From positions 208,370 through 272,369 of the forward strand of contig CADAAA010000004.1 in NCBI GenBank assembly GCA_902785785.1: DNA of 64,000 nt, in the 5' to 3' direction. Numbering within the stretch: the first letter of the stretch is position 1; the number at the start of each line of letters is the position of its first letter. Position numbers and translations under genes: made by a program. The notes beneath the pieces were generated by a model. That model was not told the DNA's origin, searched no databases, and saw nothing but the letters and a program-made list of their open reading frames with translations. The stretch is from an uncultured Bacteroidia bacterium. GTDB taxonomy: Bacteria > Bacteroidota > Bacteroidia > Bacteroidales > UBA932. This document shows positions 7,699 through 24,252 of the stretch, piece by piece.

Positions 7699-8604
7699 TT
7701 ATTTGTATTTGTTTGCAGCTTCTTGCAGCTCCTCCGCCATGCGCTTGCGCAGGGAGAGAGGGGAGAGTATCTCCACCTCGGAACCGAGGCGTTTCAACTC
7801 CATCAGCAGGTCTTCATTGGGGATCACGCGGATTCGGAACTTGATATATCCTTCTCCTTCAGGCCCGATCTCGAACTGCGACGGGTGAAGTGGCAGGTCG
7901 CGGAGGAAATTGGCTTCGTGTTCCGTCACCTTCAGGTAAATGCTCTCCGGTTCAGTCTTTCCGTCCTGGTATATGCCTATGGTCTGGGAGTAGAGATCGT
8001 CAATGTCGTAATCCCTGGGCATCTTGAAGGTCCATCCCGTCGCAGTCAGGGAAGTGATGCGGTCGAGGGCGTACACACGCTCGGCTCCGCGTTCGTGACA
8101 GTATCCGAGCAGGTACCAGCGCCGCTGGTATTCCTTGATGCCGTAAGGGTCGACATGGAACATCTCGCCTTCCTCCTCGCCGTATTTCCTGTAGAATATC
8201 TCCAGGGTGCGGTCGTCCTTCATCGCCGAGATGATACCGGTGAGGTGGATCTGCCCCGAAGGGATGTTCTCGACCGAAACGCGGCCCGTCAGCCGTTCAC
8301 GGCTGAGGGAAAGGAGATTGTTGACCGTGAATGTGTTGATGAGCCATCCCACGGATGACTGGCGGTCGATGGCGTCCTCTCCATAGCGGATGAAATAGCA
8401 GTTCGTACTGCGGTTGCATTCGATCTCTATGCCGAAGATCTCGGCTATGGCCTCGCGGTGGTTGTTGAAGGTCCTCCGGTGATACTCGGTGCCGTAGCGC
8501 CGCTCCCAGCGGGTGGTGACCTGCTCCAGAGTGAGGCCTCTCTCTCCCGCGTCTATGAATGTCTGGATGAGCCAGATATACTTGTCGATGAGCTCGGTAA
8601 TCAT
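7699..8604 (-). CDS. WYL-domain transcriptional regulator
   Basis: A predicted DNA-binding regulator, 301 aa. The N-terminal ~90 residues form a winged-helix region (LTLEQVTTRWERRYG ... RTFNNHREAI). The WYL ligand-sensing domain lies around residues 120-220, with the signature RRWYLLGY and the DRI segment, followed by a WCX-like C-terminus. WYL proteins often sense nucleic acids or nucleotides and commonly control DNA-repair or defence genes. Here the start codon overlaps the recG stop by one base, so the regulator is made with a DNA-repair helicase. Whether it controls this operon is inference. Confidence 0.9.
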   Translation of the reverse strand: MITELIDKYIWLIQTFIDAGERGLTLEQVTTRWERRYGTEYHRRTFNNHREAIAEIFGIEIECNRSTNCYFIRYGEDAIDRQSSVGWLINTFTVNNLLSLSRERLTGRVSVENIPSGQIHLTGIISAMKDDRTLEIFYRKYGEEEGEMFHVDPYGIKEYQRRWYLLGYCHERGAERVYALDRITSLTATGWTFKMPRDYDIDDLYSQTIGIYQDGKTEPESIYLKVTEHEANFLRDLPLHPSQFEIGPEGEGYIKFRIRVIPNEDLLMELKRLGSEVEILSPLSLRKRMAEELQEAANKYK

Positions 8605-11033
8605 CAGCTTATCTTGCTATAATCCTTGATGTTGTATTTATCCTTTTGAAGTTCCCGTGCAAGCGGGATATTCTTGGGTGAGGAGAGGAACGGATCCGAC
8701 TCCAGTATATGCTCGGCATATACTCTCGCTTCGTTCAGGATGCGGCTGTCATGGACGAGTGATGCGATGTTCAACGCGATAGGCAGGCCGCTCTGTTGCG
8801 TACCCTCCAGGTCGCCGGGGCCGCGCATCTTCATATCCTCCTCTGCCAGTTCGAAACCGTTCTCGGTCGCGACCATAAGGTCAAGGCGGCGCTGCGACTC
8901 CTTTGACACCTTCTCGTCTTTGACGAGGATGCAGTAGGACTTCTCGCTGCCTCGCCCGACCCGGCCGCGCAGCTGATGCAGCTGGCTCAGACCGAAGCGC
9001 TGGGCGCTCTCGATGACCATGACCGATGCGTTCGGGACATCCACGCCCACCTCGATGACTGTCGTTGAGACGAGGATATCCGCACGGCCGGCTGCAAATG
9101 CGGACATGTTGAAGTTCTTGACTTCGTTGGTCTGTTGTCCGTGCACTATAGCGACCTTGTAGTCCGGCAGCGGGAAAGCCTTGACAATCTCCTCATATCC
9201 TGCCTCGAGGTTCTTCAGGTCCATCTTTTCGCTTTCGAAGATGAGCGGGAATACCACGAAGACCTGTCTGCCTTTGGCAATCTCGTCGCGCATGAACTTG
9301 TACAGTGCGCGACGCTTGCCTTGCCCTATGAGCATGGTCTGGACGGGCTTTCGGCCAGGCGGCAGTTCATCGATGACCGAAACATCCAGATCACCGTACA
9401 ACGTCATCGCCAACGTCCGCGGAATCGGCGTCGCCGTCATTACCAGTACGTGTGGTGGCACACGTACCGGTCCTTCGGATGATTTCACCCCCTGCACCCC
9501 CTCGAGGGGGATTGCACGGATATCGCTGTCTCGACCGTGCGGCCCACGCACTATTTCCTGTTCAGAGGGAGTGCTGTCTTCGGAAACCGTGGCCGCCCGT
9601 GGCCTCGTGAACGGGGGGACCGCAAGCGAAGCGCTGCGGTGGGATGAGCGAAGCGAAGTTTCAGAAGGCAGCACTCCCTCCTGAGGAAGGATGACAGGGC
9701 CTTTGGCCCAGAGCTTCGAGCGCTGGTCGACGCCGAAGCGGTGCTGCTCGTCGATGATGGCGAGGCCGAGGGCGCGGAAGCGGACGTCATCTTCGATGAG
9801 CGCGTGCGTGCCGATGAGGATGGCGATACTGCCGTCCTCGAGGCCGGCGTGTATCTCGCGGCGCTCCTTGGCGGTGCTGCTGCCCGTAAGGAGCGCGCAC
9901 CGCACGCCAGTTCCTTCGAGGTACCTGCTCACATTGGCGTAATGCTGCTGCGACAGGACTTCCGTCGGAGCCATGATGCACGACTGGAATCCGTTGCCGT
10001 AGGCAATCAGGCATGTCAGCACGGCGACCATGGTCTTGCCGGAACCGACGTCTCCCTGCAGCAGGCGGTTCATCTGATGGCCGCTGGTCAGGTCGGCACG
10101 TATTTCCTTAATGACGCGTTTCTGGGCGCCGGTGAGGTCAAATGGCAATTTCCTGTACAGGGCATTGAATGACTCGCCGACCTTGGGCATGCGGATGCCG
10201 ATTTCGCTGCGGCTGCGTATGTATTTCTGCTTCAGCAGGGAAAGCTGAAGGAAGAAAAGCTCCTCGAACTTGAGGCGGTAGGATGCCTTGAGCAGCGCAT
10301 CCGCATCCTGCGGGAAATGGATGTTGCGCATGGCGAACTTCAGCGGGACCAATTCCTTTTCGTGCAGGATGTATTCCGGAAGGGTTTCTTCGATCTCCGG
10401 GAGGCAAGCATTGAGCGCGGCGGCCTGAAGGCGGTTCATAACCTTGCCGGTTATGCCTGCGTTCTTGAGCTTCTCAGTGCTTGGATAAACTCCGGTGAGG
10501 GTGCCTATGCCGGTGTGGACCTCGCCCGGTGACGGGGGATTGTCCACTTCCGGGTGGACGATATTCATGCGGCTGCCGAAAGTCTGCGGCTTGCCGAAGA
10601 AAACGAACACACTTCCCGGCGTAAGCCGCTCCCAGTTCCACTTGATGCCCTTGAAGAACACCATCTCCATCTCGCCGGTACTGTCCGCGACAATCACGCT
10701 CAGGCGTTTGACGGCATTGAAACGCAAGGTCTTGGCTCCGGTCTTGTCCTTCGGGCAATTGTCTATCTCGGTACCGGCCTGGCTGCGCTGTATGAATATC
10801 GAACTGCCGGGGCCATAAAGCGTGGCCCGTATTACTCTGGCCATGACCTGGACATGAGCGACGTCAGGAGTGATTTCGGCTATCCGCTGGATGCTGCTCC
10901 TGTCGATATACCGGAACGGATACAGATGGATGAGATCGCCGAAAGTGGCGACCTCCAACTCTGTCTTCAACAGCTGGGCCCTTTTCGGCCCCACGCCCGG
11001 CAGATACTGTATGTCCGATTTTAATTGTGTCAT
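8604..11033 (-). CDS. recG: ATP-dependent DNA helicase RecG with an in-frame palindromic insertion
   Basis: RecG remodels stalled replication forks and branch-migrates Holliday junctions. From the ATG at 11033 it is 809 aa. It has an N-terminal wedge/OB region, Walker A GDVGSGKT at 327-334, DEQH at 428-431, motif III TATP at 533-536, and a normal helicase C domain (QLRGRVGRG). A TTG four codons upstream also opens the frame, but the -7 box at 11043-11050 puts the transcript start too close for it. Between motif II and motif III about 79 residues (roughly 446-524) have no counterpart in other RecG proteins; they are encoded by a palindromic element (see 9565-9680). The frame is intact, so the gene is probably functional. 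It is the first gene of the leftward operon. Confidence 0.95.
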   Translation of the reverse strand: MTQLKSDIQYLPGVGPKRAQLLKTELEVATFGDLIHLYPFRYIDRSSIQRIAEITPDVAHVQVMARVIRATLYGPGSSIFIQRSQAGTEIDNCPKDKTGAKTLRFNAVKRLSVIVADSTGEMEMVFFKGIKWNWERLTPGSVFVFFGKPQTFGSRMNIVHPEVDNPPSPGEVHTGIGTLTGVYPSTEKLKNAGITGKVMNRLQAAALNACLPEIEETLPEYILHEKELVPLKFAMRNIHFPQDADALLKASYRLKFEELFFLQLSLLKQKYIRSRSEIGIRMPKVGESFNALYRKLPFDLTGAQKRVIKEIRADLTSGHQMNRLLQGDVGSGKTMVAVLTCLIAYGNGFQSCIMAPTEVLSQQHYANVSRYLEGTGVRCALLTGSSTAKERREIHAGLEDGSIAILIGTHALIEDDVRFRALGLAIIDEQHRFGVDQRSKLWAKGPVILPQEGVLPSETSLRSSHRSASLAVPPFTRPRAATVSEDSTPSEQEIVRGPHGRDSDIRAIPLEGVQGVKSSEGPVRVPPHVLVMTATPIPRTLAMTLYGDLDVSVIDELPPGRKPVQTMLIGQGKRRALYKFMRDEIAKGRQVFVVFPLIFESEKMDLKNLEAGYEEIVKAFPLPDYKVAIVHGQQTNEVKNFNMSAFAAGRADILVSTTVIEVGVDVPNASVMVIESAQRFGLSQLHQLRGRVGRGSEKSYCILVKDEKVSKESQRRLDLMVATENGFELAEEDMKMRGPGDLEGTQQSGLPIALNIASLVHDSRILNEARVYAEHILESDPFLSSPKNIPLARELQKDKYNIKDYSKIS
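9498..9510. repeat. CCCCCTCGAGGGGG palindrome within the recG insertion
   Basis: A perfect 14-bp palindrome at 9497-9510, inside the non-conserved recG segment and about 55 bp from the larger inverted repeat. It suggests that the insertion contains more than one palindromic unit. Confidence 0.7.
9565..9680. repeat. Intragenic palindromic element in recG
   Basis: Two 23-base arms, 9565-9587 and 9658-9680, are inverted copies of each other with two mismatches. The shared core is GAGGGAGTGCTG. The 70-base interior is rich in GCGAAGCG-type repeats and includes a GGTCCCCCC motif on the minus strand. The element is read through in frame by recG. A related element lies in mtaB at 23407-23535. The whole non-conserved stretch is wider, about 9450-9700, and is flanked by small palindromes (GGGCCTTTGGCCC near 9698 and TACGTGTG/CACACGTA near 9447-9466). 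Confidence 0.85.
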
Positions 11034-11042
11034 GACTTGGCA

Positions 11043-11050
11043 CAAATATA
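11043..11050 (-). promoter_or_regulatory. Candidate recG promoter -7 box, near-leaderless
   Basis: Minus-strand TATATTTG matches TAnnTTTG and ends 9 bases before the recG ATG. Transcription would start within a few bases of the start codon. No -33 TTTG at the expected distance. Confidence 0.55.
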
Positions 11051-11166: not shown

Positions 11167-11248
11167 ATCCGTGCGGGTTTTGGCCGTTTTTCCGCACGGA
11201 TGGGCCTATTTTGCCTGATCGGTGCGGGAAAAGGGCAAAATCCCGCAC
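11167..11248. repeat. 82-bp double-hairpin REP-like repeat, copy 1
   Basis: Hairpin 1 has a perfect 10-bp stem, ATCCGTGCGG/CCGCACGGAT, with a 15-base loop. Hairpin 2 has an 8-bp stem, GTGCGGGA/TCCCGCAC. Read on opposite strands the two hairpins share the pattern GTGCGGG-TTTTG-CC-TTTT-CCGCAC, so this is an inverted pair of REP units (BIME-like). It lies 6 bp past the RAYT stop codon and is identical over all 82 bases to copy 2 at 12350-12431, in the same orientation. Confidence 0.93.
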
Positions 11249-11254
11249 GCCCAG

Positions 11255-12220
11255 CTACTGCTTTAAGGATTTCAAGGGGTATAAGGTATTGACGGTATGC
11301 ATGTCAAGATTCAGGATGCGATGGATCTGAGAATTGCTGGAGGCATAGTCTTCATGCATGACTTTGGCTATCTCTACTTTCTCTTTGAGGCTCAATTCCG
11401 ACGGTCTCCTGATGGCAAACCTTTTCTTACACTCCAACTGCACAGCCGAATACATCTCTTCGTCAGTCAGTATGACGGAGTCTCCCAAACGTCTGGCTTC
11501 TTCGCTGTAAGCTTCGATATTCTTGGACAGCAGAGTGAAATACTGATGGGCATCCCTGAAGAATCCCTCTCCCTGGTCGATCCTGCAGAAACTTGGCGGG
11601 TAGATGAATCCGTTCCTGAATCTATATGCCTCAGGTAGGTCTATGATCCTTCCGTGGAAGACTTCGCGGCGCTTCTGATGGGTCAGCGAAGAGAATGGAA
11701 CTCCTTCATCCTCGCGTGACAGGGGATTGAAGTAGTAGGCTCCTGTGCCCCAAGGATAAGAGAACGGGGTGTATCTAGGGTTGACGACGTATCCGTTCCG
11801 ATGGATGTAGATGATTTCGTTCCTGAGCATATGAAGGCTGGTAACCGGGATAGGTTCACACTTGAAAGCAGACAGGTCGACATCCCTTCCCTGCAGCCTG
11901 AGGTACCTCTTCAGTCTTTCGCGTCTCTTTGAAATGTACTGGATGCAGAGGTCCCTGCTACCTTCGGCCAGGTCATGGATATGATTTCCCATCAGCGTAT
12001 GAGAGTAAATGACCACGCCTGTCTCTGCCGAACATATAGCTGCCGAGGACATGCCGAAACGGTAGTCGTCTTCCGTAATGAATAGGTCTTCCTGTAACTG
12101 GCCTGGTGTTGTAAGGTGCCAGAACGGACCGGAGTTCCTGAACCGGTACTCACAAAGGGATTCTTTCTCAGAAAAGGACATCGGACGTTTGCCGATCTGG
12201 GTAGGATATCGGTCTTCCAT
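11255..12220 (-). CDS. REP-associated tyrosine transposase (RAYT), HUH/Y1 nuclease
   Basis: A Y1-family HUH endonuclease related to IS200 TnpA; RAYTs cut and join single-stranded REP hairpins. In 321 aa it shows FWHLTTPG (residues 33-40), the metal-binding HIH within LMGNHIHDL (80-82), candidate catalytic tyrosines (Tyr95, Tyr106) in the following helix, and the family block NEIIYIHRNGYVVNP then YPWGTGAYY. The last ~45 residues look like a helix-turn-helix (SLKEKVEIAK ... SQIHRILNLD). Identical double-hairpin repeats flank it 6 bp downstream and 129 bp upstream, the expected arrangement for a RAYT and its cognate REPs. Codon use is less GC-rich than in neighbours, suggesting transfer. The exact active-site Tyr is inferred. 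Confidence 0.88.
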   Translation of the reverse strand: MEDRYPTQIGKRPMSFSEKESLCEYRFRNSGPFWHLTTPGQLQEDLFITEDDYRFGMSSAAICSAETGVVIYSHTLMGNHIHDLAEGSRDLCIQYISKRRERLKRYLRLQGRDVDLSAFKCEPIPVTSLHMLRNEIIYIHRNGYVVNPRYTPFSYPWGTGAYYFNPLSREDEGVPFSSLTHQKRREVFHGRIIDLPEAYRFRNGFIYPPSFCRIDQGEGFFRDAHQYFTLLSKNIEAYSEEARRLGDSVILTDEEMYSAVQLECKKRFAIRRPSELSLKEKVEIAKVMHEDYASSNSQIHRILNLDMHTVNTLYPLKSLKQ

Positions 12221-12349: not shown

Positions 12350-12431
12350 ATCCGTGCGGGTTTTGGCCGTTTTTCCGCACGGATGGGCCTATTTTGCCTG
12401 ATCGGTGCGGGAAAAGGGCAAAATCCCGCAC
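12350..12431. repeat. 82-bp double-hairpin REP-like repeat, copy 2
   Basis: An identical direct copy of 11167-11248. Here hairpin 2 gains one more pair (GGTGCGGGA/TCCCGCACC). It lies upstream of the RAYT gene. The span between the outer edges of the two copies is 1265 bp and may be a mobile unit. Confidence 0.93.
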
Positions 12432-22525: not shown

Positions 22526-23875
22526 TCAGATGATGATGTCTGTCAGCCGCCCGACGAGCGAAGCGTCGTAAGGCCGCACAATACGTATGTAGTTTCCGGT
22601 ATATCCCGACATGTTCCCGTCCTTTTCCTTCGATTCGAAAAGCACGCGCTCGCGAATGCCGCGGTTCTCCTCGACGAATTCGTCGTGGAGGCGGGAGCAC
22701 AGCTCCTCAAGGGCGAGGACGCGCTCATGCTTGACGGCTTCCGACAATTGTCCGGGCATCTTCGCCGCCGGAGTCCCTGGCCTGCGGGAATAGGGGAATA
22801 CATGTATGAAAGCCGGTCTCAGCCGGGCGATGAAATCATAAGTTTCCTTGAACAGCTCCTCAGTCTCGCCCGGAAGACCGACCATCGTGTCTATGCCGAA
22901 GAACACCTTCGGCTTGCCAGGACCTTCCATGCGGGAACGGATATAGGCTATCCGGTCCGCGAAGAATGCGGTGTCGTATTTACGACCCATGGCCTTCAGG
23001 AGCGTGTCGCTGCCAGTCTGGAGCGGTATGTGGAAATGCGGCTGGAACTTTGTCCCGGAAGCGATCCAGTCGACGATCTCCTCCGTGATGAGGTTCGGCT
23101 CAATCGATGAGATGCGGTAACGCTCTATGCCTTCGACCTTGTCCAATGCCTTAAGAAGGTCGAGGAAAGACTCGCCGGTGGTATGCCCGAAATCCCCGGT
23201 GTTGACCCCCGTCAGGACGATTTCCTTCACGCCTTCGGCTGCAATCGCCTCTGCATTCCTTACGCACTCGCAAATCGGAATGTTCCGGCTCTCACCACGG
23301 GCATATGGCACAGTGCAATACTTGCAGAAATTGTTGCACCCGTCCTGCACCTTCAGGAACGACCTCGTCCTTTCCCCTGTGCTGTACGCCCCGAAGACGG
23401 AATTTCTTTTCTCCGGGGGTAGTGTCCCGGAAAATGCCTCACTATGTTCGGCCCCCCCCATTGCGAGCAATGGGTCCCCCCCTCTTATGTTGCCGAGGGT
23501 GGCACAATTCTCCGGGGCACTACCCTCGGAGAAAAATCCTGTCAGGGCCAGGGTTTCGGGGACTACGAGGGATTTCTCGTGGGCGCCGAAGACGCGGGTG
23601 ACTCCTTCGATGGCCTCGAATTCGGCCCTGTGAAGCTCTGCGCTGCATCCGGTAACGATGATGCGCGCATCGGGGTTGATGCGATGCATCTTCCGCACGA
23701 TGTTTCGGGATTTTGCGTCAGACGTACCGGTGACGGTACAGGTGTTGACCAGGTAGATGTCGGCTTTCTCCTGCCACGGGACTACCTTGAGTCCTGCGGC
23801 CTTGAACTCCCGCTCGTAAGTGGAAGTCTCCGCATAGTTGAGCTTGCAGCCCAGTGTCAGGAAAGCTATTACCAT
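22526..23875 (-). CDS. mtaB: tRNA (t6A37) methylthiotransferase MtaB with an in-frame palindromic insertion
   Basis: A radical SAM enzyme that adds a methylthio group to t6A37 of tRNAs decoding ANN codons. From the ATG at 23873-23875 it is 449 aa. The N-terminal cluster cysteines are Cys10, Cys46 and Cys77, and the SAM cluster is CNNFCKYC (180, 184, 187) followed by a C-terminal TRAM-type region. About 47 residues, roughly 113-159, sit between VVPETLALT and SVFGAYSTGERTRSF where other MtaB proteins have a short linker. They are encoded by a palindromic element at 23407-23535. The start overlaps the folB end by 7 bases, and the enzyme shares substrate logic with tsaD (29557), which makes t6A. 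Confidence 0.94.
   Translation of the reverse strand: MVIAFLTLGCKLNYAETSTYEREFKAAGLKVVPWQEKADIYLVNTCTVTGTSDAKSRNIVRKMHRINPDARIIVTGCSAELHRAEFEAIEGVTRVFGAHEKSLVVPETLALTGFFSEGSAPENCATLGNIRGGDPLLAMGGAEHSEAFSGTLPPEKRNSVFGAYSTGERTRSFLKVQDGCNNFCKYCTVPYARGESRNIPICECVRNAEAIAAEGVKEIVLTGVNTGDFGHTTGESFLDLLKALDKVEGIERYRISSIEPNLITEEIVDWIASGTKFQPHFHIPLQTGSDTLLKAMGRKYDTAFFADRIAYIRSRMEGPGKPKVFFGIDTMVGLPGETEELFKETYDFIARLRPAFIHVFPYSRRPGTPAAKMPGQLSEAVKHERVLALEELCSRLHDEFVEENRGIRERVLFESKEKDGNMSGYTGNYIRIVRPYDASLVGRLTDIII
23407..23535. repeat. Intragenic palindromic element in mtaB
   Basis: Two 29-base arms, 23407-23435 and 23507-23535, are inverted copies with three mismatches; the shared core is GGGTAGTG. The interior has poly-C runs around a small hairpin CCCATTGC/CAATGGG and a GGTCCCCCC motif. 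It is translated in frame by mtaB. Architecture and core resemble the recG element at 9565-9680. Confidence 0.85.
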
Positions 23876-24252
23876 TTCCTGTCGAGGATTCTTCCGGACT
23901 TGGTCTCGTGAGGATATGACACGGTCACGCGTGACCATTGGCATGCCCCGCCGACAGGCGGAGTGCACTTGGATATCCTTATCTGGAAACGGATGAATTC
24001 CGGGAACTTCGCGGCAATGCCCTTGACTATCCTCCAGGCCACGTTTTCCATGAGGTTCGACGGTTTGTCCATCTCCTCGCGGATGACCTTGTAGACGTCG
24101 GCGTAATCGACCGTGTCATCCAGACGGTCGGACTTGGCCGCGGTCTTGAAATGGTATTCCGCCCTGAAGTCGACCACGAAAAGGTTGCCCTCGGCCCTTT
24201 CCTTTTCGAAGCAGCCGTGGTACGCATGGAACTCCATCCCGCTGAGTTCCAT
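23869..24252 (-). CDS. folB: Dihydroneopterin aldolase FolB
   Basis: FolB cleaves 7,8-dihydroneopterin to 6-hydroxymethyl-dihydropterin in folate synthesis. The family pattern is present: GMEFHAYHGCFEKER near the N-terminus, VDYADVYKVI in the middle and the C-terminal RISKCTPPVGG. I chose the ATG at 24250-24252, which overlaps the upstream stop as TAATG, giving 127 aa. ATGs at 24276 and 24312 would add 8 or 20 residues and deepen the overlap. It is coupled to mtaB downstream, whose ATG lies inside its last codons. Confidence 0.9.
   Translation of the reverse strand: MELSGMEFHAYHGCFEKERAEGNLFVVDFRAEYHFKTAAKSDRLDDTVDYADVYKVIREEMDKPSNLMENVAWRIVKGIAAKFPEFIRFQIRISKCTPPVGGACQWSRVTVSYPHETKSGRILDRKW

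Follow-up and report, generated by a model that had tools for sequence, protein, structure and literature searches.

A dispersed palindromic element with a knotted core and copy-specific stems lies in frame in recG and other conserved genes of a Bacteroidales genus

The recG locus and its extra segment

The window analysed here, a stretch of 64,000 nucleotides from the genome of an uncultured Bacteroidia bacterium of the order Bacteroidales, carries on its minus strand a gene at 8604-11045 that is listed with 813 codons and whose product NCBIfam names RecG. Between helicase motifs II and III the predicted protein has a surplus of about 77-80 residues, and since residues 452 and 533 bracket a single residue of the solved RecG 1gm5 in an alignment, the insert can be placed at about residues 453-532 (9450-9689, minus strand). 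The frame of 813 codons is open throughout this segment, as the initial annotation had stated, and its claim that some 79 residues at this place are unmatched elsewhere held against 1gm5 and most of the genus, for which 61 genomes were searched and loci from 29 of 36 congeners were retrieved. The span from DEQHRFG to ATPIPR comprises 112 residues in the window and 34-37 in 26 of these 29 loci, the remaining three having 79 (L010), 71 (L029) and 55 residues (L021). A loop common to the whole order did not appear and, as 26 loci are short and three hold inserts of their own, the insert is not general and the loop has been filled more than once.

The insert is composite and consists of a palindromic element, here called element A (9565-9680), and a rarer repeat, element B (9485-9540, minus strand). 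The insert at L010 is likewise element A, in the orientation opposite to that of the window copy, and those at L029 and L021 are different; in addition, element A lies in recG at L109. With respect to the window genome (G000), the strand of the recG element is opposite in G015 and the same in G082. At L021 (recG of G009) we noted by eye a third type of insert in the loop between motifs II and III, which has the short arms CTGCTGGAGA and TCTCCAGCA. An assembly artefact or contamination could be suspected in draft genomes in which some copies sit at contig ends, yet the recG copy has an open frame and is internal to a contig of 272 kb, and recG holds element A in two other assemblies (G015, G082), so that the chance of such an error appears negligible.

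An inverted-repeat search places the arms of element A at 9565-9587 (left) and 9658-9680 (right; both plus strand), exactly where the initial annotation had seen inverted repeats of 23 bases with two mismatches; they are 91% complementary and enclose 70 nt. This conserved core (9588-9657, plus strand; family model match 9578-9667) begins with a hairpin, P2 (9588-9607), in which 9588-9594 pair with 9601-9607 around the loop GCCCGT, the third pair being T-T in the recG copy. Loop bases 9596-9600 pair with 9611-9615 in a pseudoknot (9596-9615), for which 99.5% of cells are paired in the family alignment and two of the five pairs show double changes; a further hairpin, P3 (9619-9640; 9619-9623 with 9636-9640), varies from copy to copy; all three lie on the plus strand. 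The recG copy matches the family covariance model with E 4e-28, being itself among the 44 copies used to build that model. The predicted fold of 9555-9690 is 4.8-4.9 SD stabler than shuffles on both strands; of two control copies that were folded, one reached a z of -5.8 and the other a z of -0.5, with 65 of 200 shuffles equally stable. The separate 14-bp palindrome of the earlier description, CCCCCTCGAGGGGG, was found as well, at 9497-9510, and is perfect; a 13-nt inverted repeat occupies 9442-9454 and 9459-9471.

A second element A copy lies in the window at 23407-23535 on the minus strand (arms 23407-23435 and 23507-23535; model match 23428-23516), inside an mtaB-type methylthiotransferase frame (22526-24115, minus strand) that has 529 codons from stop to stop and is open across the copy. 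Upstream of recG, an ORF of 321 aa (11255-12220, minus strand) contains an HUH-like motif, NHIH, which we read by eye as Y1/RAYT-like and which makes the ORF a member of a candidate mobiliser class; searches of Pfam and NCBIfam with this ORF returned no match. Identical 82-bp direct repeats (11167-11248 and 12350-12431) surround it in the manner of a REP-like pair around a RAYT-like gene.

The conserved core and the copy-specific arms

The core shows a hairpin and a pseudoknot with covarying pairs. On the core strand, 95.3% of cells pair over P2 (7 bp), the pseudoknot (5 bp), in which the downstream partner of the P2 loop is ACGGG, and the five outer pairs of P3. Double changes occur in 8 of these 17 pairs, compared with a shuffled mean of 2.1 and none of 500 shuffles as high, although the structure was drawn by eye and counted on the same copies, which favours it, and relatedness among copies inflates such counts. 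Control structures slid by 1-3 columns gave at most three pairs with double changes. One of the five measures, the number of further pair types, was less distinct (15 vs 12.8 in shuffles, with 39 of 500 shuffles as high). When a MAFFT alignment was given to RNAalifold, it returned a weak helix only, and a fourth hairpin seen by eye is variable or absent between copies. In Rfam 15 the window copy had no significant match, and ten copy-bearing loci had none at E <= 1.

The arms behave differently from the core. The initial annotation had treated the arms as the repeat to be looked for elsewhere in the genome; when this genome was searched with the insert, the core between them did recur at dispersed places and the arms themselves mostly did not, so that the arms can be set aside as the mobile unit. 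Within each copy they pair well: 65 stems with a median length of 21 bp contain 1335 Watson-Crick pairs, 65 G-T, 31 A-C and 40 other mismatches. Between copies, terminal inverted repeats differ and are not common to the family. Where two copies are identical over the first 36 nt of the core (108 pairs), the left arms had a median identity of 0.46 compared with 0.42 in the null, 91% of pairs being below 0.6 and two at or above 0.8. Some copies nevertheless share arms (L065/L069, by eye and among the matches listed; L092/L122; L134/L135), from which it follows that arms can travel. By eye, most of the arm sequence is retained in the orthologous pairs L052/L099 and L094/L096, and in the latter pair one genome has six added right-arm bases that lengthen the stem.

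Where the arms come from was approached in several ways. Element A arms matched the flanking 300 nt no more than controls did, which speaks against copying from elsewhere within that distance, and the native loop of atpG proved too variable to tell which arm is native. At one intergenic site (L103/L104; G023, G071), element A occurs in opposite orientations and with different arms. A pre-existing intergenic hairpin does not account for the arms at this site, as of 22 further loci in which both flanks were present, 20 are short and lack the element and two carry other inserts (six loci showed one flank only). The simplest reading of such same-site copies, here and in recG, is that tolerant places were hit repeatedly; flipping in place may be an alternative. 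Beside element A, L103 and L104 contain a second hairpin with the conserved loop CTCCTGTTCGTAAGGGCC and arms with, by eye, seemingly compensatory changes from one genome to the other.

Element B offers a closer view of a junction. It occurs at one other place in the window genome, in frame in an ORF that resembles yggS by eye, and with two places in all it is not an abundant family. At its junction in recG, 9459-9471 (minus strand) is an inverted copy of the host codons at 9442-9454. When the bases upstream of the junction were compared with each genome's own downstream codons in inverted form, 9 of 10 matched in the window, 10 of 10 in G027 and at most 7 of 10 at the other 28 loci. The window and G027 differ at synonymous sites and each junction copy tracks its own genome; because of this, fold-back copying is suggested at least for element B. 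That the arms of element A are rewritten in the same way, by fold-back copying of flanking DNA, is a tentative proposal.

The stems also carry a hint as to which strand folds. Counted on the core strand, G-T mismatches exceed A-C mismatches overall (65 vs 31, p 7e-4). The excess is seen in the 40 non-spanning copies (38 vs 18, p 0.01) and again in 16 coding copies whose gene is read from the opposite strand (25 vs 8, p 0.005). In eight coding copies whose gene is read from the core strand, the counts are 0 vs 3, which differs from those 16 (p 0.02). The overall excess speaks for the core strand as the one that folds, but not in these eight copies, and since the bias is absent there, a gene-strand or mutational cause is possible. 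For the same reason we slightly lowered our confidence in a single-stranded DNA form.

Dispersal and host genes

Within the window genome, parts of the recG insert are found at five other places, four of which are element A, and an 18-mer of the core occurs exactly at four places, the window counted in. A covariance model (R2), built from 44 copies that fit it by construction, detected at least 19 element A matches in this genome, a lower bound, as 150 of 858 first-look candidates were scored. Across the genus, a DNA search with the core matched 41 of 61 genomes, and the model found at least 690 matches in at least 50 of the 61 genomes, the window genome included (median 7, maximum 46); with a threshold of E <= 1e-4 and 69 first-look candidates scored per genome, these counts are lower bounds as well. 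By eye, the copies fall into two subfamilies, A1, to which the recG copy belongs, and A2, which includes the copy at 23407-23535. This dispersal over 19 places in one genome, 50 of 61 genomes and unrelated genes makes it highly implausible that the segment is just an ordinary loop that evolves fast and holds a palindrome by chance, an explanation that could draw on the different loop lengths of recG and atpG across the genus.

Outside the genus, element A is rare: among 294 other genomes sampled from the order, three gave matches, belonging to three other genera, one of them in the same family. One of these genomes (G298) holds a full element A with arms. In another (G148) the copies look like those of a congener locus, flank included, so that transfer or mis-binning is possible. 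Named records that bear the core are uncultured Bacteroidales or Bacteroidia and one Prevotellaceae, several of them from rumen, reticulum, omasum or cecum. Carriage by phages or plasmids found no support, as one exact pattern was without match in IMG/VR and blastn returned none in phage and plasmid collections. Two local arrangements may be mentioned: at the start of a contig (L278; G013 contig C2, 1-800), in a genome without a Y1/HUH-like match, three element A copies stand in tandem about 305 bp apart, and at L003 (1-100) another GC-rich repeat-like stretch, CTCCCCGGGGAGGGG, lies beside an element A copy.

In the window genome, 14 of the 19 copies lie in frame within genes, on both strands, five appear to lie between genes, including one at a contig end, and none was seen to break a gene. 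The idea that a repair helicase tolerates a mobile palindrome in its frame is thereby supported for the dispersed core and extended to further hosts. According to NCBIfam these are, besides RecG, AtpG, UvrA, RecR, TilS, TruB, shikimate kinase, RibF, PcrA, an RlmB-type methyltransferase, RsmE, MtaB, HemW and DnaX (the dnaX copy being a partial model match), and in other genomes GltA-type, YgiQ, NapH-like, MurB, DnaX, RluA-type and RsmF-type proteins. A family could be named for all 20 further host proteins tested, for 13 of them above the curated cut-off; below it were shikimate kinase, PcrA, the RlmB-type protein, HemW and the NapH-like, RluA-type and RsmF-type proteins. One match runs across the insert in eight of the 20; in seven there are two stretches or families (the position of the second stretch being mostly not printed), and in five the match covers one side only. 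The AtpG match breaks up near query residues 225-243 in atpG of G066, G017, G069, G061, G027 and G011, which suggests insertions elsewhere in that gene.

Among the fetched loci, 27 of 78 copies with arms lie in frames that stay open across the element and continue for 60 residues or more to either side; at least two of these frames (L097, L122) look like chance frames. Of the 51 non-spanning copies, 22 overlap some frame; some of these are real genes near an end (L096, L107, the second copy of L125), others are probably chance frames, and gene-breaking copies in congeners are therefore possible. The other 29 overlap no frame of at least 90 aa, and 18 of them sit between convergent frames. The latter position would suit an element kept for a host function, be it termination, the formation of mRNA ends or the regulation of a protein; as presence at the same site differs between congeners and neither the encoded peptides nor the arms are conserved, we consider such a role unlikely.

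Both orientations relative to the host gene occur. Coding copies have on average 3.3 of six frames open compared with 2.4 in shuffles, the remaining copies 3.0 compared with 2.5, and element lengths modulo 3 are even in coding and other copies, with the stem ends being approximate. Since each intragenic case found in the window genome is in frame, the cell probably translates these copies as added protein loops, and the peptide derived from element A would very probably stay in the mature protein. A conserved pseudoknotted core, stabilising arms and essential genes among the hosts are also what one might expect of an intervening sequence, i.e., a ribozyme- or intron-like knotted RNA that is removed from the mRNA or the protein. 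Such an element, however, would not need an open gene frame, which all 14 intragenic copies of this genome have; it is also at odds with the use of both orientations, and there is no Rfam match, so that excision seems quite unlikely.

Candidate mobilisers, known relatives and meaning

The HUH-like ORF next to recG has its own 82-bp repeats, and element A is therefore not the repeat of this neighbouring gene. Its family has matches in 52 of the 61 genomes, and Y1/HUH-like genes and element A co-occur: 47 genomes have both, three have element A without a Y1/HUH match, five show the reverse and six have neither (Fisher p 5e-4, Spearman 0.52, kinship ignored). Nine of 20 Y1/HUH loci carry other repeats on both sides, a count from which self-overlaps at four contig-end loci were left out, and a scan with the A1 core showed element A near one of the 20 (L176); conversely, a scan of element-bearing loci for HUH-like ORFs recovered L176 again and one more, 3.3 kb from the copy. 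In our opinion the most likely route is that the element folds as single-stranded DNA on which Y1/HUH (RAYT-like) enzymes act in trans, although we propose it with considerable reservation.

The core is knotted and RNA-like and has no gene of its own, which could also suggest a retroelement-like RNA that depends on a reverse transcriptase for copying in trans. Reverse transcriptases (PF00078) were found in 19 of the 61 genomes, not in the window genome, and in two of the eight genomes with at least 30 copies. They show no association with element A (18 genomes with both, 32 with the element only, one with PF00078 only, ten with neither; p 0.15), and we rejected them as mobiliser, this origin being very unlikely.

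The closest parallels are the Rickettsia palindromic elements (RPEs), mobile sequences of about 105-150 bp that lie in frame in unrelated conserved genes and also in intergenic regions (PMC2229807, PMC10969869, PMC6649704), each encoding a conserved peptide (PMC10969869). Element A resembles them as a palindromic repeat of about 100-150 bp that is dispersed in the genome and in frame in many unrelated conserved genes (14 of the 19 copies here). Because of this proportion it would appear to work like the RPEs, a comparison made by way of their descriptions. The resemblance proposed in the initial annotation thus stands for size and in-frame behaviour; it does not extend to a single conserved peptide, as element A uses both strands and more than one frame and its peptides differ. 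Also unlike the RPEs, it has a conserved and knotted core with copy-specific arms, and its host is Bacteroidales, for which we found no report of protein-coding palindromic elements in the open-licence literature, in line with what had been supposed.

Other systems share part of these features. A mostly Bacteroidetes subclass of RAYTs is flanked by atypical secondary structures that have copies elsewhere in the genome (PMC6006769), and like the REP/BIME-RAYT systems element A forms dispersed hairpins in genomes with Y1/HUH genes; REPs, however, measure 20-40 bp (PMC3733652), whereas element A is longer, often intragenic (14 of 19 in the window genome) and near one of 20 Y1/HUH loci. ERIC/RU-1, RU-2 and Correia elements are small, non-autonomous MITEs that are sometimes fused in frame (PMC2229807), which also applies to element A, but their terminal repeats are family-wide and those of element A differ between copies. 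In the mitochondria of Nematomorpha, both arms of coding palindromes encode conserved protein sequence (PMC6649704). Long inverted repeats inside translated genes are the common trait, with translation predicted in the case of element A, which in addition has a conserved mobile core of a kind not described in that account (PMC6649704).

Taken together, the copies of element A form a genuine, dispersed family of palindromes, in frame in many conserved genes and set apart by a knotted core and copy-specific stems. Judged from the sequences, the element is likely to be mobile and non-autonomous, a palindrome of about 100-150 bp whose translation adds a loop to RecG between motifs II and III. Its core strand would fold into the hairpin with pseudoknot, the variable hairpin and, optionally, a further hairpin, the whole being closed by a stem whose sequence varies from copy to copy. 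The element would insert widely, with those copies surviving that keep the frame in tolerant loops, of which the recG copy, read as an additional loop between the two motifs, would be one. A rather doubtful extension would be a class of mobile elements, single-stranded and pseudoknotted, whose closing stem is made anew at insertion when the target's own sequence is copied by folding back. If this were true, host genes would gain palindromes made partly from their own codons, and housekeeping enzymes would continually acquire peptides.

Selfish palindromes that are translated in conserved proteins have been described above all for Rickettsia. If our reading is true, gut Bacteroidales have such a family of their own, in which the knotted fold is conserved while the stem is different in almost every copy. 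It would provide many natural insertions in enzymes of repair, replication, translation and tRNA modification, with insert-free congeners as controls, and would open to test the movement of such elements, the origin of their stems and the ways in which proteins acquire additional segments.
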